Source: an uncultured Halieaceae bacterium (lineage in GTDB: Bacteria; Pseudomonadota; Gammaproteobacteria; Pseudomonadales; Halieaceae). Taken from it: a DNA stretch of 32,538 nt. The notes below the pieces were generated by a model. That model was given only the letters and a program-made list of their open reading frames with translations. It was not told where the DNA came from and ran no database searches. Positions within the stretch are counted from its first letter, which is position 1; every line of letters begins with the position of its first letter. Positions 4,186-31,534 of this stretch are shown here, piece by piece. The stretch covers positions 1 to 32,538 of the forward strand of contig CAJWWA010000008.1 in the NCBI GenBank assembly GCA_913048495.1. Reading direction: 5' to 3'. The translations under genes and the position numbers were made by a program.

Positions 4186-4843
4186 CTCACCCGCCGGCCG
4201 CCGCGCCCGCCGCGGCTTTACGCTGGTCGAGGTGCTGATCGCGCTCGCGGTCACCGCCTTTGTCGCCGCCGCGGCCTACGCGGGCCTTTCGGCGGTGATC
4301 GACGGGGTGGACGCGACCCGCGCGGTAGCACGGCGCACGGAGGACCTGAACCGGGCCCTCATGATCCTCTCCCGCGACCTGCGGCAGTTCGCGCCGCGCC
4401 CGGTGCGCGACGAGTTCGGCGAAATGGAACCGGCCCTGAGCGGCGGTCCGCTTGCGCCCTTTCCGCTCACGCTCACGCGCACCGGCTGGCACCCGAGCGC
4501 GGAGCAGCCGCGCAGCCACCTCGAGCGCGTCAGCTACTACCTCGACGGCGACGCGCTCTGGCGCCTGTCCTGGCCGGTGCTCGACCGGGCGAGTTCCGTC
4601 GAGCCGCAGCGCGTGCGCCTCCTCGACGGGGTGGAGCGGCTGGAGCTGCGCTTCCTGCCCCGGCTGGACACGCTCACCGCCGGCCGCGGCAGCGACATCG
4701 ACAGCCGCGACTGGGAGCGGAGCTGGATCCGCGAGGTGGGCGTCGATACGCCGTTGCCGCCCCCGCCGGCGGCCCTCGAGGTTTACCTGGAGCTGGCGTC
4801 CCTGGGTGAATTGCGGAGGCTCTATGCGCTGCCGAGGCCCTAG
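4169..4843 (+). CDS. gspJ: Minor pseudopilin GspJ
   Basis: GspJ is a minor pseudopilin of the type II secretion tip complex. The product shows the processing site G|FTLVEVLIALAVTAFVAAAAY after a basic leader. It then has the ILSRDLRQFAPRPVRDEFG segment typical of GspJ and the central strands LERVSYYLDGDALWRLSWPVLDRA. I choose ATG 4169 over the in-frame ATG at 4151 because GGAGG sits 5 nt before 4169, while no ribosome-binding site precedes 4151. This gives 224 aa and a 16-residue leader. The start lies inside the last codons of gspI (17-bp overlap). Confidence 0.94.
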   Translation: MPRHPDSPAGRRARRGFTLVEVLIALAVTAFVAAAAYAGLSAVIDGVDATRAVARRTEDLNRALMILSRDLRQFAPRPVRDEFGEMEPALSGGPLAPFPLTLTRTGWHPSAEQPRSHLERVSYYLDGDALWRLSWPVLDRASSVEPQRVRLLDGVERLELRFLPRLDTLTAGRGSDIDSRDWERSWIREVGVDTPLPPPPAALEVYLELASLGELRRLYALPRP

Positions 4844-5873
4844 CCGGTCGCTGCGCCGGCGACCGCGCCGCGGCGGCCGGCAGGACGGCGTCGCCCTGGT
4901 GGTGGCGCTGCTGGTCTTTGCCCTGGCCGCGGTGCTGCTGGTGGCGCTGCAGCGCGAGTTCAGCCTGTTCTACCGCCGCGCCGGCAACCAGCTGCTCGCG
5001 GAGCAGGCCTGGGCCTACCTGCGCGGCGCCGAGGCGCTGGCTGCCCTCGCCCTCGCCCGCGACTACGAGCTCGACCAGCAGCGCGAGGCCCCGCGGGACG
5101 ATCTCGACGAGCTGTGGGCGCAGGAGAGCGCGCCCTACGCCCTCGACGAGGGCGGCTGGCTTTCCGGCAACCTGCAGGACCTGCAGGGCCGCTTCAACCT
5201 CAACCTGCTCGTCGCGCGCAACGGGGCGGAGGAGGCCGGCGGCCTGCCGTCCTGGACGCCGGCGCAGGCGTTCTTCATCCGCCTGCTGGTGAGCTTCGAG
5301 GACCTGGCGGTGGACCAGGCCACGGCCATTGCCGTGACCGAGGCCATCGGCGACTGGCTCGACGCGGACCAGGTGCCGCGGCCGAATGGCGCCGAGGACG
5401 ACAGCTATGTCATCCGCACACCGGCCTACCGCGCCGCCAACCGGCCGATGGCGAGCGTGAGCGAGCTGCGCGCCGTCGCCGGTATCACCCCGGCGCTCTA
5501 CGCCCGCCTCGAGCCACTGGTCACCGTGTGGCCGGAAACCCCGGGCGGCCTCAATATCCACACCATGCCGCCGGCGCTGCTGCGCGCCGTGAACCGCGAC
5601 GGCAGCCTCGAGCCGCTGCCGCCGGGCGACGTGGAGGCGCTGGTGGAGCAGCGCCGGAGCGTCGGCTTTGCCGACAAGCGCGCCTTTCTCGACGACCCGG
5701 TCTTCGGCGGCGAGCCCCTCGAGGCGGTGGCGACGCTGCTCGGCGAATCCTCGAGCTGGTTTCTCCTCGCCGCCCGCGTCGAGATTGCCGACCGGGAGCA
5801 GCGCTTGTACAGTGTGCTGCACCGTGAATTCCGCGACGTGCGCAGCGTACTGCGCGCCAGCGGGAGCCTGTGA
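4824..5873 (+). CDS. gspK: Type II secretion tip pseudopilin GspK
   Basis: GspK is the large minor pseudopilin that caps the pseudopilus with GspI and GspJ. I place the start at ATG 4824, behind a GGAGG in the gspJ end; it overlaps gspJ by 20 bp and gives 349 aa. A very basic leader (RSLRRRPRRGGRQDG) precedes the site G|VALVVALLVFALAAVLLV. The mature protein lacks Glu at +5, the expected exception for GspK. Recognisable blocks are DLQGRFNLN, the IGDWLDADQVPRPNGAED segment, YRAANRPMASVSELRAV and the LNIHTMPPALLRA region of the helix-hairpin-like domain. The stop overlaps the GTG start of gspL. Confidence 0.95.
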   Translation: MRCRGPSRSLRRRPRRGGRQDGVALVVALLVFALAAVLLVALQREFSLFYRRAGNQLLAEQAWAYLRGAEALAALALARDYELDQQREAPRDDLDELWAQESAPYALDEGGWLSGNLQDLQGRFNLNLLVARNGAEEAGGLPSWTPAQAFFIRLLVSFEDLAVDQATAIAVTEAIGDWLDADQVPRPNGAEDDSYVIRTPAYRAANRPMASVSELRAVAGITPALYARLEPLVTVWPETPGGLNIHTMPPALLRAVNRDGSLEPLPPGDVEALVEQRRSVGFADKRAFLDDPVFGGEPLEAVATLLGESSSWFLLAARVEIADREQRLYSVLHREFRDVRSVLRASGSL

Positions 5874-7596: not shown

Positions 7597-8367
7597 GTGC
7601 GCAAGGCCCTCGTTCCCCTCCTGCTGGCATTCGGCTGCCTCCTTGCCGCGGTGGTGCTGCTGCCGGCACGGCTGGCCGGCTGGGTGCTGCCGCCGTCCGC
7701 GATCGTCGCCGACGGCTACGCCGGCACGCTCTGGCGGGGGCGGGCGGCCCGGGCGCTGGTCGCCACGCCGGGAGGCTACTTCCATCTCGGCGGCCTGCGC
7801 TGGGAACTTTCGCCGCTGTCCCTGCTTCTCGCGCGCCCGACCGCCACGGTCGAGGCCGCCTGGGCGGACCAGCGCCTCGCCGGCACGGTGACCTGGCGCG
7901 GCGGCGACAGCCTGCGGCTGCGCGATGCGCGCTTCGCCGTGGACGCCGCGCTGCTCAAGGAGGTCGTTCCGGTCGCGCTGCGCGGCCGCATCGCCGGTGA
8001 CCTGGCGCAGCTGGCCGTCGCCGAAGGCCTGGTGCAGCGCCTGGAAGGGCGCCTGACCTGGGAGCGGGCGGCCTGGGACGCTCCCGGCAGCAGTTTTGCC
8101 CTCGGCAGCTACGCGGTAGACTTCGCCCCCGCGGCGGGCAGGTCGCAGGCGGAAGGTCAGGACGCCGTGCAGGGCGAGGTGCTGACCCTGGCCGGCCCGC
8201 TGGAGGCGGCGGGCACCCTGGTCCTGGCGGAGCGCCGCTACCGCATCGATCTCACCCTGACCAGCGAACGGTCCCTGCCGCGGCCCCTGGCGGAGGCCCT
8301 GTCGCTGCTCGCAACGCCGACGGACCGCGGTTTCCGCCTGGTCCTCGACGGCGAATTGCAACGCTGA
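7597..8367 (+). CDS. gspN: Type II secretion accessory protein GspN
   Basis: GspN is a bitopic inner-membrane protein present in some but not all type II systems; its exact role is unsettled. The 256-residue product has an N-terminal membrane anchor ([19 protein letters not shown]) and then the family blocks [10 protein letters not shown] and [15 protein letters not shown], with repeated beta-rich segments ([36 protein letters not shown]). The GTG start is 6 nt past gspM. It is the last gsp gene here. In Xanthomonas-type operons gspD follows gspN, but here a rubredoxin gene follows, so gspD must lie elsewhere, perhaps upstream of gspE beyond the window. Confidence 0.9.
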
Positions 8368-14690: not shown

Positions 14691-14742
14691 GGCCGGGCTA
14701 GTGTACACCGCGACCGTGAAGCCCGCCCGCGGCGGTGCGCCC

Positions 14743-14771
14743 CTTGAAAAACCTTGCGCTGTGCCCCGTGT
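14743..14771 (+). promoter_or_regulatory. Sigma-32 (heat-shock) type promoter upstream of the 146-aa secreted protein
   Basis: CTTGAAA (14743-14749), a 14-nt spacer and CCCCGTGT (14764-14771) match the heat-shock sigma factor consensus CTTGAAA-N13-15-CCCCATNT except for one base in the -10 element. The upstream CC before CTTGAAA also fits. Predicted transcription starts near 14780, giving a leader of about 95 nt before ATG 14877. A competing sigma-70 reading (TTGCGC 14755-14760, 16 nt, TAGGGT) is weaker. Confidence 0.6.
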
Positions 14772-14876
14772 GAACTAGGGTGAAAGGGTGCGCGGTTGCC
14801 GGGGGGGTTACTGTCCCGGGCGGTAGCGGCAGCCGCGGACGTTTTCTACTAAAGCAGAAAAACCAAGGAGAACAAC

Positions 14877-15317
14877 ATGTTGAGATTTATCACGGCCGCC
14901 GTACTGGCGCTCTGTCTGCCGCTGGCGGTATCGGCGCAGGACAACTTCAAGGGCGGCAGTTTCTGGGCGATATCGAGCATCGCTACCAAGCCCACGCGCT
15001 TCGATGACTACGTCGGTGACATCTCCGGGCTCTGGCGCTCGCAGATGGAGGCCCTCAAGAAAGACGGCAAGGTGCTGAGCTACATGATGCTCAGCAATGT
15101 GCACCCCCGGGATGGCGAGCCGGATCTCTGGCTGATGGTCGAGTGGGCCTCCGCCGCGGCGATGCTGGATACGCCGTGGGAGTACTACGAGGAGCTCATG
15201 GAGGAAATGGGCGAGGACGAGGACGACGTCGAAGAGGCGGCGCGGGACCGCGAGGAGCTGCGCACGCTCATGAGCAGCGTGCTCGCGCGCGAAATCATGT
15301 TCAAGGACGACGACTGA
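14877..15317 (+). CDS. Secreted (periplasmic) protein of unknown function, 146 aa
   Basis: I do not recognise a named family. A clear Sec signal peptide (MLRFITAAVLALCLPLAVSA) is followed by a predicted cleavage after AVSA. The mature part of about 126 residues begins QDNFKGGSFWAISSIATKPT. The pattern TKPTRFDDYVGDISGLWRSQ, then GKVLSYMMLSNV and EPDLWLMVEWASAAAM, resembles small dimeric alpha/beta-barrel proteins, but this is a guess. The C-terminal third is strongly acidic (YEELMEEMGEDEDDVEEA). The ribosome-binding site AAGGAG (14867-14872) precedes the ATG. A sigma-32-like promoter lies upstream and a strong terminator downstream, so it is a single-gene unit. Confidence 0.85.
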   Translation: MLRFITAAVLALCLPLAVSAQDNFKGGSFWAISSIATKPTRFDDYVGDISGLWRSQMEALKKDGKVLSYMMLSNVHPRDGEPDLWLMVEWASAAAMLDTPWEYYEELMEEMGEDEDDVEEAARDREELRTLMSSVLAREIMFKDDD

Positions 15318-15331
15318 CCGACCCTTCCTGC

Positions 15332-15365
15332 CCCGCCCGCCGGAGCCCGGCGGGCGGGCCTTCTC
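15332..15365 (+). terminator. Strong intrinsic terminator between two converging units
   Basis: A perfect 12-bp stem (CCCGCCCGCCGG at 15332-15343 with its complement at 15347-15358) closes an AGC loop, followed by CCTTCTC on the + strand. It lies 15 nt past the secreted-protein stop and 16 nt from the end of the oppositely oriented micro-ORF, so it could act on both strands. The T-rich tail is poor on either strand. Confidence 0.65.
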
Positions 15366-15380
15366 GACCCCCGCCGGGCG

Positions 15381-15461
15381 TCAGCCCGGAATGAACTGGA
15401 TCACGCCGATGACGGTGAGAAAGACCGCCAGGGCGATCCATTTCCAGGCCTTGCTGCTCAC
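15381..15461 (-). CDS. 26-residue single-span membrane micro-ORF coupled to the Deg-type protease
   Basis: The GTG start at 15461 overlaps the protease stop (GTGA), the usual sign of translational coupling. The predicted peptide is MSSKAWKWIALAVFLTV followed by IGVIQFIPG, then TGA. It has two lysines near the N-terminus and a continuous hydrophobic stretch of about 18 residues, so it should insert with its C-terminus outside the cytoplasm. Such peptides often bind and modulate larger membrane proteins. Nothing identifies a partner, though the upstream HtpX, DUF1499 protein and Deg protease are obvious candidates. It is the last gene of the unit, facing the terminator at 15332-15365. Below normal gene-finder limits, so existence is inferred from coupling and composition. 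Confidence 0.5.
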   Translation of the reverse strand: MSSKAWKWIALAVFLTVIGVIQFIPG

Positions 15462-16519
15462 TGGGACTCCGACAGGGTGACGTCCAGCGTTTCCTCGTCT
15501 TCGCCGCGGCGCACGGTGACCGTGATGCGGTCGCCGACCTTGCGCTTCTCGAGAATAGACAGGTAATCGTCGTTGCTGCGTACCGGTTCGCCGTCGATGG
15601 CGACGATGATGTCGCCGAGGACGATGTCGCCGCGGGCGCTGCGGAAGGCGCCGCGAAGGCCCGCCTCGTCGCCGGGCAGGTCCGGGTAGACGCGCACGAT
15701 CGGCAGGCCCTCGATGCCGTAGCGGCGGATCCAGCGGTCGCTGGCGAGTTCCACGCCCATGATCGGCCGCAGCATGCGCCCGTAGCTGATGAGCTGCGGC
15801 ACCACGTCCTTCACCGTGTTTACCGGGATGGCGAAGCCGATGCCGGCGCTGGCGCCGGAGGGGCTGTAGATGGCCGTGTTCACGCCGACGAGCTGGCCCA
15901 GCGAGTTGAGCAGCGGGCCGCCGGAGTTGCCGGGGTTGATGGCGGCGTCGGTCTGGATCACGCCGCGGATGCGCCGGTTGCTGGGGGCGCGGATCTCCCG
16001 GCCGAGGGCGCTGACCACGCCGGTGGTCAGCGTCGTGTCGAGGCCGAAGGGGTTGCCGATGGCGAGCACCTTGCGGCCGACGGACAGCTCCGAGGAGTCG
16101 CCGAGGGGGAGGCTGACCAGCCCCGCCGGCGGCTCGAGGAGCCGGAGTACGGCGAGATCCTTCTCCGGCGCAATGCCGATGACCTCGGCGTCGTGCTCGC
16201 TGCGGTCCTGGAGCGTCACGGTGAGGCGCTGGGCCCCCGCGATGACGTGGAAGTTCGTGACCACCAGCCCGCTCTCGTTCCACACGAAGCCGGTGCCGGA
16301 CCCGCGGGGGATCTCCTCCACGTTGAGGGTGAGCAGGTTGCGCCGCAGGGTCGTGCTGGTGACGTAGACCACCGCCGGGCTGGCGGCGTTGAAGATCTCC
16401 ATCGTGTTGGCTTCGTCCTCGGTGGCGAAGCTCAGGTAGTCGACCTCGTCGCCGGCGCCGCAGCCCGGCGCCAGGAGCAGGGCCAGCAGGAGCGCGATTA
16501 CGCGGCCCGCGGCCGGCAC
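15458..16519 (-). CDS. HtrA/Deg-type (S1C) serine protease with one PDZ domain
   Basis: An envelope serine protease that degrades or senses misfolded proteins. Counting from GTG 16519 (353 aa), the catalytic triad is His91 (TNFHVI), Asp121 (KDLAVL) and Ser199 (GNSGGPL). One C-terminal PDZ domain contains GDIVLGDIIVAIDGEPV. An N-terminal hydrophobic segment (VIALLLALLLAPGCGA) is either a membrane anchor, as in DegS, or an atypical lipoprotein signal (APGC). The blocks TLRRNLLTLNVEEIPRGSG and AIGNPFGLDTTLTTGVVSAL resemble the DegP/HhoA-like group common in cyanobacteria and plants more than E. coli DegS. GTG 16528 is an alternative start overlapping the DUF1499 gene end. The stop overlaps the micro-ORF start. 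Confidence 0.93.
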   Translation of the reverse strand: MPAAGRVIALLLALLLAPGCGAGDEVDYLSFATEDEANTMEIFNAASPAVVYVTSTTLRRNLLTLNVEEIPRGSGTGFVWNESGLVVTNFHVIAGAQRLTVTLQDRSEHDAEVIGIAPEKDLAVLRLLEPPAGLVSLPLGDSSELSVGRKVLAIGNPFGLDTTLTTGVVSALGREIRAPSNRRIRGVIQTDAAINPGNSGGPLLNSLGQLVGVNTAIYSPSGASAGIGFAIPVNTVKDVVPQLISYGRMLRPIMGVELASDRWIRRYGIEGLPIVRVYPDLPGDEAGLRGAFRSARGDIVLGDIIVAIDGEPVRSNDDYLSILEKRKVGDRITVTVRRGEDEETLDVTLSESQ

Positions 16520-16520
16520 T

Positions 16521-17252
16521 TCAGGCACCGCTGCCGAAACGCTCGGCAAAGGCGCGGATGCGCGCCGCATTGGCGCCCAGGTCGCTCACCCCTACCCGGG
16601 ACGCCGAGCGCAGGTCGACCCGGCTGCCGTCTTCGTCACTGCGCACGCGGATCACGACGTCGTCCTTGAAGGCCATGATCGCCGTGGTGTCCACCGCCTC
16701 GATGAAGCCGGCGTTTTCGTCGCTGCGCAGCACCTCCCAGCCGAGGTCGCGGGCGATCGCCTCGGCGCGGGCGAAGGTCTCGCCGTAGGGGGCGCTGCTG
16801 TAGAGCGTGTCGAGGTCCGGGTAGGCCTGCGCCTGCTGCGCCTGGACCGCCGGGTCGAGCTCGAGGCTGTTCGCCTCCGGGCCGCGGGCCTCGCGCACCG
16901 CTTCGAAACGGGGCGGATCCGCGAGGTCGGTGGTGATGTCGTGGATCGGCGGCACGTCCCGGGCGGCCATCGCGCTCACCAGCAGCAGGGCGCCGGGCAG
17001 CGCGGGCAGGGCGCGCAGGGCGATGGCCCCGCGGCGGCTGCCGTTGCGCGGCAGCAGCGCGGCGACGGCGTACCAGGCGAGCACGAGCAGGCTGGCCAGG
17101 CAGGCGACGGCGTAGAGCATCAGCCCCTGCTGCCACTGGCCCGCGCGCACGGTGAGCACGGCCAGCGCGACCAGCGTGAGGAAGGCCCAGGCCAGGTAGC
17201 CGGGCCAGCGCAGGAGCGCCGGCAGGGTCCCGGCTGTCGCCGCGGTACTCAT
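16521..17252 (-). CDS. DUF1499 family membrane protein
   Basis: The 243-residue protein has about three N-terminal membrane spans: [36 protein letters not shown] and [17 protein letters not shown] soluble DUF1499 domain follows, starting at the hallmark [16 protein letters not shown] and ending with [20 protein letters not shown] and FAERF. The molecular function of DUF1499 is unknown. Its ATG overlaps the htpX stop (ATGA at 17249-17252), and the protease start lies at its end, so it is translated in lockstep with two membrane quality-control proteases. That context is the best clue to its role. Confidence 0.92.
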
Positions 17253-18507: not shown

Positions 18508-19242
18508 CTAACGCAGCAGCAGGTCCTTTGCCTCGTTGACCTTGGCGGCCAGGTAGTCATTGCCGCCGCGGTCCGGGTGAAGTTTCTGCATCAGGCGCCG
18601 GTGCGCCGCGATGATGTCGTCCCGGGTCGCCGCCTCGCCGAGACCGAGGACCGCCAGCGCCTCGCTGCGGGTCATGCCGCCGTTGTCCTGTGACTCCTGC
18701 TGCGCACGTTCGCCATCGCCGCCGTCGCCGGGCGCCTCGCCGGGGAAACGCTGCTCGAGGTAGCTGTCGAGCAGCTGCACCGCCTCCGGGTCTTCCGCCG
18801 CGCACCAGCGGCGCAGCTCGCCGAGCTGCGAGCGGTCCATCTCGTCGAGGCGCCAGTCCTGCCAGGGGCCGGCGAGCACCTCGCCGGAGAGCGCGCCGCT
18901 GTCGTGGTCGAGGTGCATGGCGAGGGTCCGCGTCTTCACCGTGGACTGGCCGCCGCCGGCCGGTTGCGCCCCCGCGGACTGCTGCCGCCACTGGGCGAGC
19001 ACGGGGAACAGGCGCAGCAGCACCGGCAGGGCCTGCCGGGCGGCCACGAGGAGACCGGTCAGGGCGGCGCCGACCCAGTGCATCTTTCCGGCGAGGGTCA
19101 GCAGCACCACGGCCACCACCGCCACGCCCACCGCGATACGCAGCATCTCGCCGCGCCGCTTGTGCGGCGGCAGTGCCTGCACCCGGCGATAGAGCAGGTA
19201 GGCCGTGGCGAGCACGGCCAGGAGCAGTACGATTCGGGGCAC
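18508..19242 (-). CDS. Membrane-anchored J-domain (DnaJ-like) protein
   Basis: A probable co-chaperone that recruits DnaK to the inner membrane. The 244-residue protein has two N-terminal hydrophobic segments (VLLLAVLATAYLLY and IAVGVAVVAVVLLTLAG) and a linker rich in Gln and Gly. The middle region contains MHLDHDSGALSGEVLAGPW and LLDSYLEQRFPGEAP. A C-terminal J domain (about residues 187-244, MTRSEALAVLGLGEAATRDD) includes the HPD tripeptide at 222-224 (LHPDRGGNDYLAAKVNEAKD). The C-terminal J domain behind a membrane anchor resembles TIM14-like and DjlA-like proteins rather than DnaJ itself. The start is GTG 19242, 12 nt after the VWA gene. The middle region resembles a conserved segment of TerB/J-type proteins, but I cannot assign it. 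Confidence 0.88.
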   Translation of the reverse strand: MPRIVLLLAVLATAYLLYRRVQALPPHKRRGEMLRIAVGVAVVAVVLLTLAGKMHWVGAALTGLLVAARQALPVLLRLFPVLAQWRQQSAGAQPAGGGQSTVKTRTLAMHLDHDSGALSGEVLAGPWQDWRLDEMDRSQLGELRRWCAAEDPEAVQLLDSYLEQRFPGEAPGDGGDGERAQQESQDNGGMTRSEALAVLGLGEAATRDDIIAAHRRLMQKLHPDRGGNDYLAAKVNEAKDLLLR

Positions 19243-19254
19243 GGGGCGGGGACC

Positions 19255-19941
19255 TCAGCGCTCGAGCTTTTCGAGCAGGAGTCTAGCACCGTCCGAGGGG
19301 CTCTTCTCCAGCGCCTCGCGGCCGCCGGCGGCATAGCGGGCGACGGCGCCGAGGAGGCCGGCCAGCCGGTCGGCGCTGGCGCGGTCGAAGTCGAGGCGGG
19401 CGCCGCCGCTCAGCCGGGCGAGCTGCTCGAAGCAGGCGGTCACGGCGGGCTGCCCGCCCTCCTGGAACAGGAACAGCGGCAGGCGCTTCAGGCCGCACTC
19501 CCCCGCGAGCCCGGCGAGGCCGCCGGCGTCCTCCTCCATGGCGTCGCCGATGAAGATCGCCGCCCGCACAGGCCGCCGGGCGTGCTCGGCGAGGGCGTGG
19601 CGCAGCACGCGGGTGAGCTGCGTCCGCCCCGCCGCGCACTGTACCCGGCTCATGGACCGCGCCAGGGCGCCGGCGCTGCCGGTCCAGGCCGTGGCCTGGA
19701 ACTCGCCCAGGCCGCGGTAGTAGCACAGCTGTACCGACAGGCTCGCCAGGCGCTCCGTGGCGAGGAACATCTCGCCCTGCAGCTGGCAGGCGAGGTCCCA
19801 GGTGGGTTGGCGGCTGGCCGTGGCATCGACCGCGAACAGCAGCCGCGGGCTGCGCTCGGCAAAGGCCTGGAGGTTGCGCCGCTTGTCGAGGAAACGCGCG
19901 ACCTCGCCGCGGCCGGCGGGTTTGGCGGGGGAGCGGCTCAT
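19255..19941 (-). CDS. VWA-domain protein paired with a J-domain protein
   Basis: A cytosolic von Willebrand factor A-like protein of unknown target. I choose ATG 19941 (228 aa) because GAGG precedes it at good distance; the frame stays open further upstream without a good start. The MIDAS metal site is present as Asp39-x-Thr41-x-Ser43 (LLFAVDATASRQPTW), with a later acidic loop FIGDAMEEDAGGLAGLAG and the intervening strand LSVQLCYYRGLGEF. There is no signal peptide. The next gene, 12 nt downstream, encodes the membrane J-domain protein, and a TTGGAG-N17-TAAGAT promoter lies upstream. The pair may act together in protein handling, but this is inference. Confidence 0.85.
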   Translation of the reverse strand: MSRSPAKPAGRGEVARFLDKRRNLQAFAERSPRLLFAVDATASRQPTWDLACQLQGEMFLATERLASLSVQLCYYRGLGEFQATAWTGSAGALARSMSRVQCAAGRTQLTRVLRHALAEHARRPVRAAIFIGDAMEEDAGGLAGLAGECGLKRLPLFLFQEGGQPAVTACFEQLARLSGGARLDFDRASADRLAGLLGAVARYAAGGREALEKSPSDGARLLLEKLER

Positions 19942-19967
19942 GATCGGGGCCTCGGTCTCATGGGTCG

Positions 19968-19996
19968 ATCTTAGCGCCGGGGCCCGGTGGCTCCAA
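19968..19996 (-). promoter_or_regulatory. Candidate sigma-70 promoter for the VWA/J-domain genes
   Basis: On the minus strand TTGGAG (19996-19991) and TAAGAT (19973-19968) are separated by 17 nt. Predicted start is about 20 nt upstream of ATG 19941. It faces a TACACT box (20014-20019) that could serve as -10 for msrA on the other strand, though no good -35 accompanies that box. Confidence 0.5.
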
Positions 19997-20121
19997 GGCG
20001 CCCGCAAGCGCGCTACACTTGCGGCTGGCGACCCGCCGGCCAGCGGCAGGGAATGCGAGCCTGCAACGCGAACAGGTAACGGGACGTCGCCACCGGAACC
20101 AGCAACGAGCGCAGCGAGGAG

Positions 20122-21267
20122 TCACCCATGGCCAGCCTGTTTTCCATCCGCAAGAAGCACGCCCTGCCTTCCGCCGAGGAGGCGCTGCCCGGCCGTGACG
20201 AGCCGATGGCGGTGCCGGAGCGCCACGCGGTCCTGGCGACACCGCTGCGGGGGCCCTTCCCGGCACCCCTGGAGCAGGTGGTGCTGGGCATGGGCTGTTT
20301 CTGGGGCGCCGAGCGCCGCTTCTGGGAGCAGCCGGGCGTCTACACCACGGCCGTCGGCTATGCCGGCGGTCACACGCCGAACCCGGGCTATCGCGAGGTG
20401 TGCTCGGGCAGGACGGGCCACACGGAAGCCGTGCTCGTCGTCTTTGACCCGGCGGTGCTGTCCTTCGACGCGGTGCTGAAGCTGTTCTGGGAGGGGCACG
20501 ACCCGACCCAGGGCATGCGCCAGGGCAACGATATCGGCACCCAGTACCGCTCCGCGATCTACACCGCAAACGCGGCGCAGCAGCAGGCGGCGGAGGCCTC
20601 CCGGGCACAGTACCAGGCGGCGCTCACCGCCGCCGGCTACGGCGAGATCACCACGGAGATTGCGCCGGCGGGCCCGTTCTATTACGCGGAGGATTACCAC
20701 CAGCAGTACCTGGCGAAGAACCCCGGCGGTTACTGCGGTCTCGGCGGCACGGGTGTGAGCTGCCCGGCGGGGCTGGATATCGCCGGCTGAAGCGGGGCCT
20801 GCGCCGGCAGGCCCCCAGAAGTCCTCGTCGACTTCGTCGAGACTTTCCTCGGGTTCCACCAGCTCCAGCTGTTCCATCAGGTGGATGGCGATGGCGACGA
20901 AGTCCGAGTCTGTGATGATCCCGACCAGGGCGCCGTCCCGGGTCACCGGCAGGCACCCCATGCGCTGCTTCTGCAGGTGCAGCGCCACGCCGCGCAGGCT
21001 GGCGTGTTCGTCCACGGTCTGGACCGGCGAACTCATGACCGCCGACAGCGGCACGGCCGCGTGGTCCTCGCGGTGGCTCTCGAGGGTCGAGTCGCTGGCC
21101 GCGAGCACATCGCGGTGGGAGACGAGGCCGATGATCGTGTGCTCGGCACTCACTACCGGGATATGGCGGATGTGGTGCGCGTTCATCAGGCGACGCGCGT
21201 CCGCCAGCGTGTCATCGGGCCCCAGGGTGTAGGGCTCGCGGGTCATGATCTCTGCAACACTCAGCAT
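20122..21267 (-). CDS. Two-CBS-domain protein; frame continues antisense through all of msrA
   Basis: The first 150 residues form a normal stand-alone pair of CBS domains, which bind adenosyl ligands and regulate partner proteins. CBS1 spans roughly residues 5-58 ([37 protein letters not shown]). CBS2 spans roughly 76-130 ([39 protein letters not shown]). An acidic end [11 protein letters not shown] is a typical terminus. No stop follows: codon 151 is TGG, and the frame stays open for 231 more codons to 20122, antisense to the whole of msrA. That extension is Arg/Leu/Ala-rich and looks like a frame shadow. The functional gene is probably about 20815-21267, with the stop lost by mutation or a sequence error. 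The start ATG 21267 has no strong ribosome-binding site. Confidence 0.8.
20128..20790 (+). CDS. msrA: Peptide methionine sulfoxide reductase MsrA
   Basis: MsrA repairs oxidised proteins by reducing methionine-S-sulfoxide, using thioredoxin as electron source. The 220-residue product aligns closely with E. coli MsrA over its length. The catalytic Cys57 lies in [12 protein letters not shown], and the blocks [37 protein letters not shown] and [15 protein letters not shown] are intact. Resolving cysteines are Cys203 (GYCGLGG) and Cys212 (VSCP). The ATG follows GAGGAG. A leader of about 100 nt separates it from a possible -10 box TACACT (20014-20019). The entire gene is overlapped on the opposite strand by the read-on frame of the CBS-domain gene. 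Confidence 0.97.
20794..20815. terminator. Hairpin between the convergent msrA and CBS genes
   Basis: GGGGCCTGC (20794-20802) pairs perfectly with GCAGGCCCC (20807-20815) around a GCCG loop, 4 nt past the msrA stop. It is placed as a bidirectional terminator would be, but no T run follows on either strand. On the minus strand it begins exactly at codon 151 of the CBS gene, where a stop would be expected. Confidence 0.4.
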
Positions 21268-21396
21268 CTCGATTCCATGTCTCGTCTGATCGTTATCATT
21301 TGTTGGCCTGCTGCCGGCCCTTCCCGGCCGGTTGTTGCTGGTGACGTTACTGCGCGCGAGCCGCCCTGTCCTTGATACCGGTCAACGGTTGCATGC

Positions 21397-22122
21397 TCAG
21401 GCGAGGCCCGCGGGGGCGCCCAGGCGGCCGAGGGCGGCCACCAGCGCGGTCTCCACGCGCAGGGTGCGCGGGCCCAGGGAGACGGGCGTACAGCCCGCCG
21501 CCTCGAGCAGCCCGATCTCGAAGCGGTTGAACCCGGCCTCGGGGCCGATGGCGAGCAGGAGGGGGCCGGTAGGCGAGGCGGGGCAGGGCAGGGCCGCGCC
21601 GGGGTCGGCGACCAGGGCCCGGCGGCCGGCGCAGAGTGCCGGCAGCTCGTCCTCGGCAAAGGGGCGGAAGCGGCGGCGCAGGGTGACGGCCGGCAGCCGG
21701 GTGTCGCGGGCCTGCGCCGCACCGGCGAGGCAGTAGTCGCGCAGCGCGGCGTCGGCGAGCAGGTCGGACTGCCAGAAGCTCTTCTCGACGCGCTCGCTGT
21801 TGATCAGCACCAGGTCGCTGACGCCGAACTCGGCGACGGCGCGCAGCAGCCGCCTGAGCATCTTGGGCCGGGGCAGGGCGAGCACCAGCACCAGCGGCAG
21901 GCGCGGCGGCGGATCGCGTTCGAGGGCCACGGCGAGAAGGGCATTGTCGCCGTCGAGGTGAAGCAGCGTTGCCGTGCCCAGGCGCCCGCCGATCTCGCCG
22001 ACCGGCAGCGTGTGTCCCGGGGCGGCCTCGAAGACCTCGCGCAGGTGCCGGGCGCGGCGCCCGCGGATGCGCACCCGGTCATCGCCCTCCCGCTCGGATG
22101 CGTCGAACAGCAGCAGGTTCAC
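21397..22122 (-). CDS. rsmE: 16S rRNA (uracil-1498-N3)-methyltransferase RsmE
   Basis: RsmE methylates U1498 of 16S rRNA in the assembled 30S subunit, near the decoding site, using S-adenosylmethionine. The 241-residue protein has an N-terminal PUA-like domain (VRIRGRRARHLREVFEAAPG) and a C-terminal SPOUT knotted methyltransferase domain. Signature blocks are LALPRPKMLRRLLRAVAEFG, LLLAIGPEAGFNRFEI and VSLGPRTLRVETALVAALG. The usual GPEGGF reads GPEAGF here, a mild variation. The gene starts 21 nt downstream of the rimO stop, so it is probably cotranscribed with rimO, another 30S-modifying enzyme. Confidence 0.94.
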   Translation of the reverse strand: MNLLLFDASEREGDDRVRIRGRRARHLREVFEAAPGHTLPVGEIGGRLGTATLLHLDGDNALLAVALERDPPPRLPLVLVLALPRPKMLRRLLRAVAEFGVSDLVLINSERVEKSFWQSDLLADAALRDYCLAGAAQARDTRLPAVTLRRRFRPFAEDELPALCAGRRALVADPGAALPCPASPTGPLLLAIGPEAGFNRFEIGLLEAAGCTPVSLGPRTLRVETALVAALGRLGAPAGLA

Positions 22123-23457: not shown

Positions 23458-23558
23458 GGGAAGTTGCTCACAGCGGGTTGCTCATTGCGGTTCGCTCATA
23501 CAGGGCTGCTCGTGGAGGGTTGCGCATGCGGCGTGGCGCAGGCCGTTGCTCCGGTGCG
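23449..23558 (-). repeat. 14-bp tandem repeat array in the rimO leader
   Basis: On the minus strand the consensus is CCNCNATGAGCAAC. Units lie at 23462-23449 (contains the rimO ATG), 23476-23463, 23490-23477, 23504-23491, 23518-23505 and 23532-23519, all exactly 14 bp. A shortened 12-bp unit (23544-23533) and another diverged copy (23558-23545) follow. Units 1-3 share GAGCAAC exactly; units 4-6 differ at a few positions. Because 14 is not a multiple of 3, successive start-codon copies fall in different frames. Confidence 0.85.
23454..23499 (-). other. Chain of three 5-codon minicistrons leading into rimO by stop/start overlap
   Basis: Three repeats encode short open frames: ATG 23499 (MSEPQ, stop 23484-23482), ATG 23485 (MSNPL, stop 23470-23468) and GTG 23471 (MSNFP, stop 23456-23454). 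Each TGA overlaps the next start as ATGA or GTGA, and the last overlaps the rimO ATG at 23457, whose product begins MSNKV. None has a clear Shine-Dalgarno site. The arrangement is what termination-reinitiation coupling would use. Translation of these frames is not shown. Confidence 0.5.
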
Positions 23559-23571
23559 GCGTGAACCGGCG

Positions 23572-23600
23572 ATTATACGGCGGCGGGAGTCCCCGGTGAA
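23572..23600 (-). promoter_or_regulatory. Sigma-70 promoter for rimO-rsmE
   Basis: On the minus strand TTCACC (23600-23595) is followed after exactly 17 nt by a perfect TATAAT (23577-23572). Transcription should start near 23565, giving a leader of about 107 nt that contains the whole 14-bp repeat array before the rimO ATG at 23457. Confidence 0.65.
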
Positions 23601-23671
23601 CGGTGGGGTGTCCCCGCGCCGGGTGATCTGTCAGACTGCACCATGACATGAACAGGAAGGGGCCTCGTGCC

Positions 23672-23968
23672 ATGCGACATTTCATTATCCTGGCCGCCGT
23701 GTGCGCCGCGGCAATCAGTGGCTGCGCCAGCAACTCGACCGCCGATGCCGCCGCGGGCGACCAGGTGGCTGCCAGCGGCGAAAAGCCCGAGCTGGTCTGC
23801 GAGCGGATCAAGACGACGGGCACGCGCTTTACCGAGAAGGTCTGCATGACCGAAGAGCAGTGGGAAGCCAAGCGCGCGGCGATGCAGGAAGGCGGTGCCA
23901 ACAGTACCCGCGAGTGGCAGCGCCGCGGCAAGATGGCCAACGATATCGGCTCGCCCACCGGGGGCTGA
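23672..23968 (+). CDS. Small predicted lipoprotein, 98 aa
   Basis: I choose ATG 23672 because GGAAGGGG (23655-23662) lies 9 nt upstream and the product then begins with a compact lipoprotein signal, MRHFIILAAVCAAAISGCAS, with Cys18 in the lipobox ISGC. ATG 23648 in the same frame is less likely. The mature part has a low-complexity linker and then ELVCERIKTTGTRFTEKVCM and TEEQWEAKRAAMQEG. This two-cysteine pattern (CERIKTTGTR..EKVC.T..QW) is seen in small secreted proteins of many gammaproteobacteria and xanthomonads, with no established function. It is transcribed away from rimO, with no other gene in its unit. Confidence 0.85.
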   Translation: MRHFIILAAVCAAAISGCASNSTADAAAGDQVAASGEKPELVCERIKTTGTRFTEKVCMTEEQWEAKRAAMQEGGANSTREWQRRGKMANDIGSPTGG

Positions 23969-24585: not shown

Positions 24586-25398
24586 ATGACGGACGCAACC
24601 CTGGTCGAGCCCGGGGCGATCGGCGGCGGTGAGGCGGTGATCGTCGATTGCCGTTTCGACCTGACCCGGCCGGCCGCGGGCCGCGAGGCCTGGCTCGCGG
24701 GGCACATCCCCGGCGCGCTGCACCTCGACCTGGACCGCGATCTCTCGGCGCCGCGCGGCGAGCACGGGGGGCGGCATCCGCTCCCGGCGCCGCCGGACTT
24801 TGCCGCCACGCTCGCCCGCTGCGGTATCGACCTCGCCACCCCGGTCATCGCCTACGACGACAGCGGTTTCGCCATCGCCGGGCGACTCTGGTGGATGATG
24901 CGCGCCCTCGGCTACCGGCCGCCGGCGCTGCTCAACGGCGGCTACAGCGGCTGGCTCGCGGCCGGCGGCGAGCCCCAGGCCGGTGAGGTCGCCGCAACAG
25001 CCTGCCCGGTGCCGGTGGTGGGTGACTATGCCGGCCGGCTGACCATCGACGACGTGCGCAGCGCGCAGGCGGCGGGTGCCGCGCTGGTGGATGCCCGTTC
25101 TGCCGATCGCTACCGCGGTGAGAACGAGACCATGGACCCGGTCGCCGGGCACATCCCCGGTGCCGAGAACCGCTTCTGGGGAGACGCGACCGACGGCAGC
25201 GGCCGCCTGCTGAGTGACGAGGCCCTCGCCGTCCACTGGGGCGAGCTGCTCGAGGCAGAGCAGCTGGTGGGCTACTGCGGTTCCGGCGTCTCCGCCTGCA
25301 TCAACCTGTTCACCCTGGCCCGCCTCGGGCGCGGCGATGCGCAGCTGTACGCGGGCAGCTGGAGCGACTGGTGCTCCTACCTGCCGGCGGACGACTGA
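24586..25398 (+). CDS. sseA: Sulfurtransferase SseA (thiosulfate / 3-mercaptopyruvate type)
   Basis: A two-rhodanese-domain sulfurtransferase moving sulfane sulfur from 3-mercaptopyruvate or thiosulfate to an acceptor. Domain 1 (about residues 15-130: VIVDCRFDL, GHIPGALHLDLDRDLS, LLNGGYSGWLAAGGEP) is inactive, as usual. Domain 2 (about 150-268: ALVDARSADRYRG, GHIPGAENRFWGD) carries catalytic Cys231 in CGSGVSAC. A CGSG loop points to mercaptopyruvate preference over the CRKG of rhodaneses, although specificity is not certain. The 270-aa length is normal. AGGAGG precedes the ATG. It converges on rluA with a 15-nt gap. Confidence 0.93.
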   Translation: MTDATLVEPGAIGGGEAVIVDCRFDLTRPAAGREAWLAGHIPGALHLDLDRDLSAPRGEHGGRHPLPAPPDFAATLARCGIDLATPVIAYDDSGFAIAGRLWWMMRALGYRPPALLNGGYSGWLAAGGEPQAGEVAATACPVPVVGDYAGRLTIDDVRSAQAAGAALVDARSADRYRGENETMDPVAGHIPGAENRFWGDATDGSGRLLSDEALAVHWGELLEAEQLVGYCGSGVSACINLFTLARLGRGDAQLYAGSWSDWCSYLPADD

Positions 25399-25413: not shown

Positions 25414-26070
25414 TCAGAACGGCGGCGGGCAGTGCCGCTCGAGCCGGGCGCCGCTGACCGGGTGCGGGAAGGCGAGGCGGCTCGCGTGCAGGAGCAGCCG
25501 CGGTGCCTTCGCCAGCACCGGCTCGGGCGCGTAGAGGTCGCAGCCGAGGATCGGGTGGCCGATCGCCGCGAGATGCAGCCGCAGCTGGTGTGACCGCCCG
25601 GTCACCGGCGTGAGCAGCAGCCGCGTGCGATCGCCCGAGCGTTCGAGAACCCGGTAGCGGGTCAGGGCCGAGCGGCCCGTCTCGGCGCAGACTTTCTGCC
25701 GCGGCCGCCGCTCCCAGTCCGGGGCGATCGGCAGGTCGATCTCGCCGGCGTCGTCCGCGACCGCGCCGTCCACCACGGCCACGTAGTCCTTCTCCACGCG
25801 CCGTTCCTGGAACAGCCGGCCGAGCGCCGACTCGGCCCGCCGGGTGAGCGCGATCACCATGATCCCCGAGGTGTCGAGGTCCAGCCGGTGCACGGTGCGG
25901 GCGCCCGGGTAGTCCACCTGCAGCCGGCTGATCAGGCAGTCCTTGTTCAGTGGGTGCTTGCCCGGTACCGAGAGGAGCAGGTCCGGCTTGCGCACCAGGA
26001 GCAGGTGCCCGTCCCGGTGCAGGATATCGATCGGCTCGCGGCTGTGCGGTACGAGGTAGGGGGTGGCCAC
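25414..26070 (-). CDS. rluA: Dual-specificity pseudouridine synthase RluA
   Basis: RluA converts U746 of 23S rRNA and U32 of several tRNAs to pseudouridine. The 218-residue product lacks an S4 domain and aligns over its length with E. coli RluA (219 aa). Shared blocks are PDLLLSVPGKHPLNKDCLIS and the catalytic HRLDLDTSG with Asp64, the same position as in E. coli. Also shared are ERRVEKDYVAVV, DWERRPRQKVCAETGRSA, PVTGRSHQLRLHLAAIGHPI and APRLLLHASRLAFPHP. That match favours RluA over RluC/RluD. The GTG start at 26070 has no obvious ribosome-binding site. The gene diverges from the methyltransferase gene 40 nt away. Confidence 0.93.
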   Translation of the reverse strand: MATPYLVPHSREPIDILHRDGHLLLVRKPDLLLSVPGKHPLNKDCLISRLQVDYPGARTVHRLDLDTSGIMVIALTRRAESALGRLFQERRVEKDYVAVVDGAVADDAGEIDLPIAPDWERRPRQKVCAETGRSALTRYRVLERSGDRTRLLLTPVTGRSHQLRLHLAAIGHPILGCDLYAPEPVLAKAPRLLLHASRLAFPHPVSGARLERHCPPPF

Positions 26071-26098
26071 GGCGGCTGTCCGGCGGAAAACGAGGCGC

Positions 26099-26104
26099 TA
26101 TGAT
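26099..26104 (+). promoter_or_regulatory. -10 box immediately upstream of the methyltransferase ATG
   Basis: TATGAT at 26099-26104 is a near-consensus -10 element; the base 7 nt downstream is the A of ATG 26111. A weak -35 (CTGTCC at 26076-26081, 17-nt spacing) is possible. No ribosome-binding site fits between, so the transcript may be leaderless. Confidence 0.4.
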
Positions 26105-26110
26105 GCCGCG

Positions 26111-26779
26111 ATGACTCGACAACGCAACCCGGCGCTCAGCGCCCGCCTGCCGCCGGCGCTCGCCGGCGGCTCTATCGAGGCGACGGCGCTGCCGGGTGCG
26201 GGGGGCATCGCACTTTACCTGCTGAATGCCGATTACCCGCAGTGGGAACTCGATGGCGACGCGGTGCGGGCGCTGATGGACAAGCCGCTCTACTGGGTCT
26301 TCTGCTGGGCCGCCGGGCAGGTGCTGGCGAGCCGGATTCTCGCCAACCCGCAGTGGGTCGCCGGCCGGCGGGTTCTCGATTTCGGCGCCGGCTCCGGGGT
26401 GGTCGCCATCGCCGCCGCCCGCGCCGGCGCGAGAGAGGTGGTGGCCTGCGACCTGGACCCGGATGCGCTCGCGGCCTGCGCGGAGAACGCGGCGCTCAAC
26501 GGCGTCTCTCTCGAACTCGCCGACGACTTCGCGGCGGTAGAGGGCCCGGTGGACCTGGTGACGGCGGCCGACGTTCTCTACGACCGCGCCAACCTGCCCT
26601 GGCTCGACCGGCTGTGCGAGCGCGCGCCGGCCGTGCTCCTGGGCGATTCGCGGGTGCGGGACTTCTCCCATCCTTCGTTCCGGCGCCTGGGTGAGTGGGA
26701 GGCGAGTACCTGGCCGGACCTCGACGAATCCCCGGCCTTCCGGCGGGTGAGCCTGTACGCCGCGGGGATGCTGGACTGA
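26111..26779 (+). CDS. Class I SAM-dependent methyltransferase, ETFB-lysine / PrmA-like
   Basis: A predicted protein lysine methyltransferase of the group that includes ETF-beta lysine methyltransferase (METTL20) and is often mislabelled as ribosomal protein L11 methyltransferase. From ATG 26111 (222 aa), the pre-motif WVFCWAAGQVLASRILANPQ leads to SAM-binding motif I at residues 88-96 (VLDFGAGSG). Motif post-I (VVACDLDPDALAACAENAAL) and a DLVTAADVLYDRANL block follow. A C-terminal LLGDSRVRDFSHPSF resembles family members. Electron-transfer flavoprotein beta would be the likely substrate if this is the bacterial ETFB enzyme, but this cannot be read from the sequence. It converges on pdxJ with a 4-nt gap. 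Confidence 0.85.
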   Translation: MTRQRNPALSARLPPALAGGSIEATALPGAGGIALYLLNADYPQWELDGDAVRALMDKPLYWVFCWAAGQVLASRILANPQWVAGRRVLDFGAGSGVVAIAAARAGAREVVACDLDPDALAACAENAALNGVSLELADDFAAVEGPVDLVTAADVLYDRANLPWLDRLCERAPAVLLGDSRVRDFSHPSFRRLGEWEASTWPDLDESPAFRRVSLYAAGMLD

Positions 26780-30047: not shown

Positions 30048-30914
30048 GTGCTGGTCGACTTCCACACCCACACGAGCGCCTCCGACGGCGCCCTGGCGCC
30101 GGCGGCGCTGATCGAGCGCGCCCGCGCCGCGGGCGTCACTGAGCTCGCCATCACCGACCACGACACGCTCGCCGGTTACCGCGCGGCGGCAGCGCTGGCC
30201 GACGGCCTCGTGCTGCACCCCGGCGTGGAACTGTCCTGCCAGTGGAGCGGCGCGACGATCCACGTGGTGGGCCTCGGCGTCCGCGTGGATGACCCGACCC
30301 TGGCGGCGGGCCTTGCCGCCCTGGACAGCGCCCGGCAGCAGCGGGCGCAGACCATTGCCGAACGGCTGGCGAGCCGCGGCTTCCCCGGCGCCCTCGCCGG
30401 GGCGCGGGCGATCGCCGGCGAGAGCCAGCTGGGCCGGCCCCATTTCGCGCGCTGGCTGGTCGAGGCGGGGCACCTGCCCGACGAGGCCACGGCCTTCAAG
30501 CGCTACCTGGGCCGCAACAAGACCGGGGACGTCAAGGCGTTCTGGCCCGGGCTCGCCGAGGTTACCGGGTGGATCACCGCTGCCGGCGGCATCGCCGTGC
30601 TCGCCCACCCGCTGCACTACAAGTTCACCCGCATGAAGCTGCGCCGGCTGGTGACCGACTTCGCCGGTGCCGGCGGCGGCGCGATCGAGGTCGTCAGCGG
30701 GCGCCAGGCGCCGGGGCAGGCGACGGCCCTTTCGCAGCTGGCCGCGGATTTCGATCTCGCGGTCTCCGTCGGCAGTGATTTTCACGCCGACACGCCCCAC
30801 GGGCCTCGCCTTGGTGTAGCATCGGCGCCCTTCGCCGACCGGCCCAACGTGTGGTCGCGGCTGGCGGCCCGGGCCGGCGCGCGGGCAGCATCCAGGGAGT
30901 CGACAGCACCGTGA
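30048..30914 (+). CDS. PHP-domain phosphoesterase, RNase AM / YciV type
   Basis: A metal-dependent phosphoesterase of the TrpH/YciV group. E. coli YciV (RNase AM) trims 5' ends of rRNA and hydrolyses 3',5'-nucleoside bisphosphates. The 288-residue product shows the PHP motifs DFHTHTSASDG (His6, His8, Asp13), ITDHDTLAGY, GVELSCQWSG and SQLGRPHFARWL. Metal ligands near the C-terminus lie in GIAVLAHPLHY and VGSDFHADTPHG. The start is GTG 30048, which lacks a clear ribosome-binding site. It overlaps yciO by 4 nt (GTGA), the same gene order as in E. coli, which supports the YciV assignment. Confidence 0.92.
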   Translation: MLVDFHTHTSASDGALAPAALIERARAAGVTELAITDHDTLAGYRAAAALADGLVLHPGVELSCQWSGATIHVVGLGVRVDDPTLAAGLAALDSARQQRAQTIAERLASRGFPGALAGARAIAGESQLGRPHFARWLVEAGHLPDEATAFKRYLGRNKTGDVKAFWPGLAEVTGWITAAGGIAVLAHPLHYKFTRMKLRRLVTDFAGAGGGAIEVVSGRQAPGQATALSQLAADFDLAVSVGSDFHADTPHGPRLGVASAPFADRPNVWSRLAARAGARAASRESTAP

Positions 30915-31534
30915 GCCAGTTCTTCCAGGTCCACCCGGACAACCCCCAGGCCCGGCTCGTGCGCCAGGCGGTGGATATCATCCGTGCCGGCGGCGTCATC
31001 GTGTACCCGACCGACTCGGCCTATGCGCTCGGTTGCCAGATCGGCGACAAGGCGGCGCTCGACCGGATCCGCCGCATCCGCCGCCTCGAGGCCGATCACA
31101 ATTTCACCCTGGTCTGCCGCGACCTCTCCGAGCTCGCCACCTACGCCCGGGTGGACAACACCCAGTACCGGCTGCTGCGCAACAACACGCCGGGTCCCTA
31201 CACCTTCATCCTCAAGGCCACCTCCGAGGTGCCCCGCCGCCTCATGCACGCCAAGCGCAAGACCGTAGGCCTGCGCGTGCCGGAGAACAACATCGCCCAG
31301 GCGCTGCTGGCAGACCTCGGCGAACCGCTCATGAGCGTGACGCTGATCCTCCCGGGGGACGAGCTGCCGCTCATCGACCCGTACGAGATCCGCGATACGC
31401 TGGAGCACGATGTCGACCTCGTGATCGACGGCGGCTACTGCGGCATGGAGCCGACCTCGGTGATCGACCTCGCCGACGACCTGCCGCTGGTGCTGCGGGT
31501 GGGCAAGGGCGACGTGACGCCGTTCGAGGCCTAG
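30911..31534 (+). CDS. yciO: Sua5/YciO/YrdC family protein YciO
   Basis: A Sua5/YrdC-fold protein related to, but distinct from, the threonylcarbamoyl-AMP synthase TsaC; its role is uncertain. I choose GTG 30911 (207 aa), which overlaps the PHP gene stop as GTGA and gives MSQFFQVHPDNPQ, closely matching the E. coli YciO N-terminus. An earlier start would give an extra 20-residue leader overlapping the PHP gene. Other blocks are GVIVYPTDSAYALGC, NFTLVCRDLSELATY, NTPGPYTFILKAT, KRKTVGLRVPENNIAQALL and VDLVIDGGYCGMEPTSVIDL. The PHP-yciO pair is probably cotranscribed. Confidence 0.93.
   Translation: MSQFFQVHPDNPQARLVRQAVDIIRAGGVIVYPTDSAYALGCQIGDKAALDRIRRIRRLEADHNFTLVCRDLSELATYARVDNTQYRLLRNNTPGPYTFILKATSEVPRRLMHAKRKTVGLRVPENNIAQALLADLGEPLMSVTLILPGDELPLIDPYEIRDTLEHDVDLVIDGGYCGMEPTSVIDLADDLPLVLRVGKGDVTPFEA

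Follow-up and report, generated by a model that had tools for sequence, protein, structure and literature searches.

Architecture of the CBS–msrA locus

The window, by which we mean the whole stretch of DNA analysed, comprises all 32,538 bases of contig 8 (70.9% GC) of a 3.52-Mb genome assembly with 424 contigs and an estimated contamination of 2.3%. On the reverse strand, positions 21267–20122 form a single open reading frame (ORF) that begins with ATG and has 381 codons. Codons 1–150 (20818–21267) encode a CBS-pair protein: a Pfam scan of the 381-residue frame places PF00571 in two stretches (E = 1.4e-27), and the whole protein scores 96.2 bits against a PF00571 cut-off of 24. Residues 148–150 are E-D-F, and the window reads EVDEDF followed by TGG at codon 151 (20815–20817, reverse strand), where the ancestral gene had its stop codon. 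A sequence-only reading of the same DNA had stated that the CBS pair ends at residue 150, and that the stop is missing and the frame open for 231 codons to position 20122; both statements are confirmed, with codon 151 counted in the 231 and the frame closing at an in-frame TGA (20122–20124).

Beyond codon 151, the frame (20122–20814, reverse strand) runs antisense to msrA, which encodes a 220-residue peptide methionine sulfoxide reductase on the forward strand (20128–20790; PF01625, E = 6.5e-63) and is covered completely by the extension. The 24-nt gap from the msrA stop to codon 151 holds a perfect hairpin (20794–20815), the two fully complementary 9-nt arms of which (20794–20802 and 20807–20815) enclose a 4-nt loop. 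A perfect hairpin had been described before, together with the statement that it starts exactly at codon 151; strictly, hairpin and TGG overlap by one base, 20815.

Codon 151 and the length of CBS proteins in relatives

A family search for the CBS gene covered 140 genomes, 28 of which gave no match. The closest relative found corresponds to Pseudohaliea rubra DSM 19751, referred to here as the sister, which is the one same-genus genome among the matches listed and has a CBS protein 94% identical over 150 of 150 residues. Its protein reads EADEDF and then TAG, at exactly the codon aligned with TGG in the window, and the flanking DEDF is kept in both. Inspection of this codon across relatives had been proposed as a check, and it shows an ancestral stop: in all 25 relatives with at least 61% identity, the sister included, the protein ends at 144–171 residues, many of them with a short acidic tail that varies in length, and the 381-residue form is absent from every one. 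In a named collection that includes Vibrio, 59 of 63 CBS loci likewise end at 144–171 residues, although many of these loci come from the same genomes as the family search, and the two surveys, together with the comparison of gene ends described below, are thus not independent. The other four loci are distant (33–40% identity): two are longer proteins, of roughly 225 and 420 residues, and two match only in part.

The neighborhood is shared as well. Many of the 25 relatives have RsmE adjacent to the CBS gene. The CBS-pair proteins encoded next to rsmE and msrA in Halieaceae have the same domain and a similar length; the window gene differs from them in having no stop at 144–171 residues. The gene ends were surveyed in 24 of the 63 named loci and in the window, with the CBS end of the latter set by hand at codon 151. 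The CBS gene is convergent with msrA in 19 of the 24 relatives, the two lying within 10–84 nt of each other in 16 and about 1.1 kb apart in three; the remaining five have no convergent msrA in the DNA examined.

Length of the antisense frame

An extension codon begins at the final base of the msrA stop codon. The extension codons are therefore exact reverse complements of msrA codons, and, in consequence, only TTA, CTA or TCA in msrA could close the antisense frame. These three codons account for 14 of the 9868 codons in 34 ORFs of the window, which were chosen by length and codon-position GC without a gene caller and with the CBS gene left out; 4452–5873, which was kept in the set, contributes four of the 14 antisense stops. 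The same antisense register is wholly open in 24 of the 34 ORFs, and the chance of 231 open codons, (1 − p)^231, is 0.72 if codons are taken as independent. In one relative, 295 codons are open beyond an intact CBS stop. The length of the extension thus follows from the GC content of about 71% and the exact antisense codon register of the two genes. A long open frame is expected here and the missing stop alone is unexpected; of the anomaly pointed out by the sequence-only reading, the absence of the stop stands, with TAG in the sister, and the length of the frame is unremarkable in itself.

Where GC content is very high, the loss of a single stop codon, or a single wrong base, at convergent gene ends can thus give rise to an ORF of hundreds of codons antisense to a neighbor, the length of which is no evidence of coding and calls for caution in annotation. 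It is plausible, as the sequence-only reading remarked, that a gene caller that limits overlap would omit one of the two genes, CBS or msrA, at such a locus.

Selection on the extension

Substitutions between the window and P. rubra were counted by the method of Nei and Gojobori in a scripted analysis. The ratio dN/dS is 0.049 for the 150 CBS codons and 0.098 for msrA. When the msrA bases are read in the extension register, dN/dS rises to 2.06 with 59% amino-acid identity, and the register is broken in P. rubra by two in-frame stops over the msrA part. Of 118 differences in msrA, 86 fall on its third codon positions, which are the first positions of the antisense codons, and a ratio of 2.06 is what is expected where selection acts on msrA only.

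The 231-residue tail is basic (calculated pI 11.8) and arginine-rich, and matches no Pfam family at E 0.001. Protein-level conservation of the extension, the mark of a selected fused or overlapping coding sequence, was not found in relatives. On these comparisons, the extension appears to be passive, with no function of its own and no sign of selection. A real C-terminal extension was therefore rejected, on the grounds of the two stops in the sister, the dN/dS of 2.06, the lack of a Pfam match and the absence of the extension from relatives.

The hairpin between the convergent gene ends

From its position between the ends of msrA and the CBS gene, the hairpin may act as a bidirectional terminator, with some of the results pointing the other way. 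A terminator scan of 20000–21500 returned no terminator-like site. Compared with shuffled sequences, the fold of the window is no better on the CBS strand (z = −0.55) and has z = −1.89 on the msrA strand. In P. rubra, the distance from CBS stop to msrA stop is also 24 nt and contains a different hairpin of 6 bp, and its 50-nt folds fall short of shuffled sequences on both strands (z = 1.54 and 1.49). Among the 16 relatives with msrA convergent within 10–84 nt, four, including P. rubra, have a perfect hairpin of at least 5 bp in the gap and 12 do not.

Two further possibilities were considered and rejected. The hairpin is not a repeat element inserted at the gene end, given a single exact copy genome-wide (with two further matches at three mismatches) and the same 24-nt spacing in the sister. 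A search of IMG/VR gave one match to an 18-letter junction pattern, which we take to be due to chance and not to a viral contig sharing the CBS/msrA junction, since the surrounding DNA examined has no CBS match better than E 0.35 and does not align with the window at E 1e-5.

Integrity of the window sequence

Seven aligned blocks with 82–90% nucleotide identity span most of the window on a P. rubra contig, in reverse orientation. Besides the CBS gene, 31 ORFs have a match in the sister, every one of them in one stretch and in one frame, and the sister stop aligns exactly in 26 of them. The ends of the remaining five (7597–8367, 15458–16570, 21397–22122, 24586–25398 and 30851–31534) differ by short local changes; the large end offsets initially obtained for 24586–25398 and 30851–31534 were an artefact of gap placement. 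Alignment gaps that are not multiples of three occur in many ORFs, and those that do not cancel sit near the picked starts or ends. Three of the 35 ORFs (14877–15317, 23482–23958 and 26063–26779) have no match on the sister contig and were left out of the stop comparison. With 31 of 31 ORFs in a single frame, 26 exact stops and local changes at the other five ends, the window sequence looks sound.

Origin of the missing stop

Of the three options put forward by the sequence-only reading, stop-loss and sequencing error are in agreement with the relatives, which have the stop, and a selected fusion is disfavored, with a dN/dS of 2.06 and the stops in the sister. Stop-loss and error are what remains because the closest relative has TAG, all 25 close relatives end at 144–171 residues and none shares the extension. 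On balance, we favor an ordinary 150-residue CBS-pair gene, convergent with msrA, in which TGG has recently taken the place of the stop in this lineage. A single event would have changed one stop codon, TAG in the sister, into the sense codon TGG. If the change is real, ribosomes would make a 381-residue fusion with a basic, arginine-rich tail; alternatively, on a message ending at the hairpin they would stall without a stop codon and be rescued by tmRNA, a gene for which is present in the genome with a score above the Rfam cut-off.

A base error in the draft assembly, such that the living organism has the stop and a protein of 150 residues, is a serious contender that we hold to be somewhat short of an even chance. 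Base calling can fail at sites such as a run of G next to a GC-rich hairpin, and codon 151 adjoins both; furthermore, the assembly is fragmented and carries some estimated contamination, the stop near codon 151 is present in all close relatives, and the CBS part has been under strong purifying selection since the split from the sister with no sign of decay, which counts against a real stop-loss. An error has to be set against the 31 other sister-matching ORFs, however, which are free of frameshifts and include no other long stop-loss. We lean slightly towards TGG being a real mutation.

The position of the hairpin, which shares one base with the missing stop, together with the tmRNA gene, could suggest a programmed non-stop gene similar to arfA, with a transcript that ends in the hairpin and a full CBS protein made only when trans-translation is limiting. 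We consider this very improbable: the terminator scan was empty, the CBS-strand fold is no better than shuffles, 12 of the 16 relatives in which msrA is convergent and nearby have no perfect hairpin of at least 5 bp in the gap, and the arrangement is not conserved, with the stop kept at 144–171 residues in all 25 close relatives. We give equally little credence to the variant in which the loss of a stop beside a strong hairpin has produced a natural non-stop CBS message in this organism, its level set by trans-translation. Least probable of all is a functional 381-residue fusion in which the antisense-encoded tail serves as a new C-terminal domain. The 231 open codons and the high pI of the tail could be cited in its favor, but that open length is expected by chance, the tail belongs to no Pfam family, and none of the 25 close relatives examined has the fusion, with two stops in register and a dN/dS above 1 in the comparison with the sister.

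The explanation for the missing CBS stop is an ordinary one. Non-coding sequence that follows a gene enters its reading frame by loss of the stop, and in arfA a hairpin lies close to the end of the frame. New protein C-termini arising from non-coding sequence are treated in PMC4494051, and in the CBS gene, likewise, sequence 3′ of the gene has been taken into frame; in contrast, the part that would be added here lies antisense to a conserved gene and owes its length to GC content and register. PMC10107115 describes the stop-less message of Escherichia coli arfA. A message without a stop codon is the trait that the CBS gene would share with it, whereas the scan showed no terminator signature at the CBS locus and its arrangement is not conserved.

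Other features of the window

A smaller stop shift, which counts in favor of a recent stop-loss in the CBS gene, is seen at 7597–8367 (forward strand), where the sister has TAA and the window CAA, and the window frame is two codons longer. The 473-codon frame at 4452–5873 (forward strand), one of the 31 ORFs above, has a counterpart in the sister that is 82% identical and contains three in-frame stops, and may be a gene broken in the sister or a non-gene.

Among the ORFs without a match on the P. rubra contig, 14877–15317 (forward strand) is a gene-like frame of 146 codons with no Pfam family, in a region where the DNA alignment between window and P. rubra is interrupted from 14734 to 15385. 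Between the end of this putative gene at 15317 and the convergent reverse-strand frame ending at 15458 lies a GC-rich perfect hairpin (15333–15357) with arms of at least 9 bp, similar to that at 20794–20815. The frame at 23482–23958 (reverse strand, 158 codons; unusual codon-position GC of 0.61, 0.59 and 0.80) also has no Pfam family and may not be a gene. A methyltransferase-like protein is encoded at 26063–26779 (forward strand; best Pfam match PrmA, E = 1.6e-14); it has no counterpart in the segment of the sister contig compared, where its neighbors do match.

The frame at 19255–20007 has no Pfam match, and the protein of 18508–19242 (reverse strand), just downstream of it, matches DnaJ weakly at its C terminus (E = 2.1e-5), with 25 bits, below the Pfam cut-off of 27.8.
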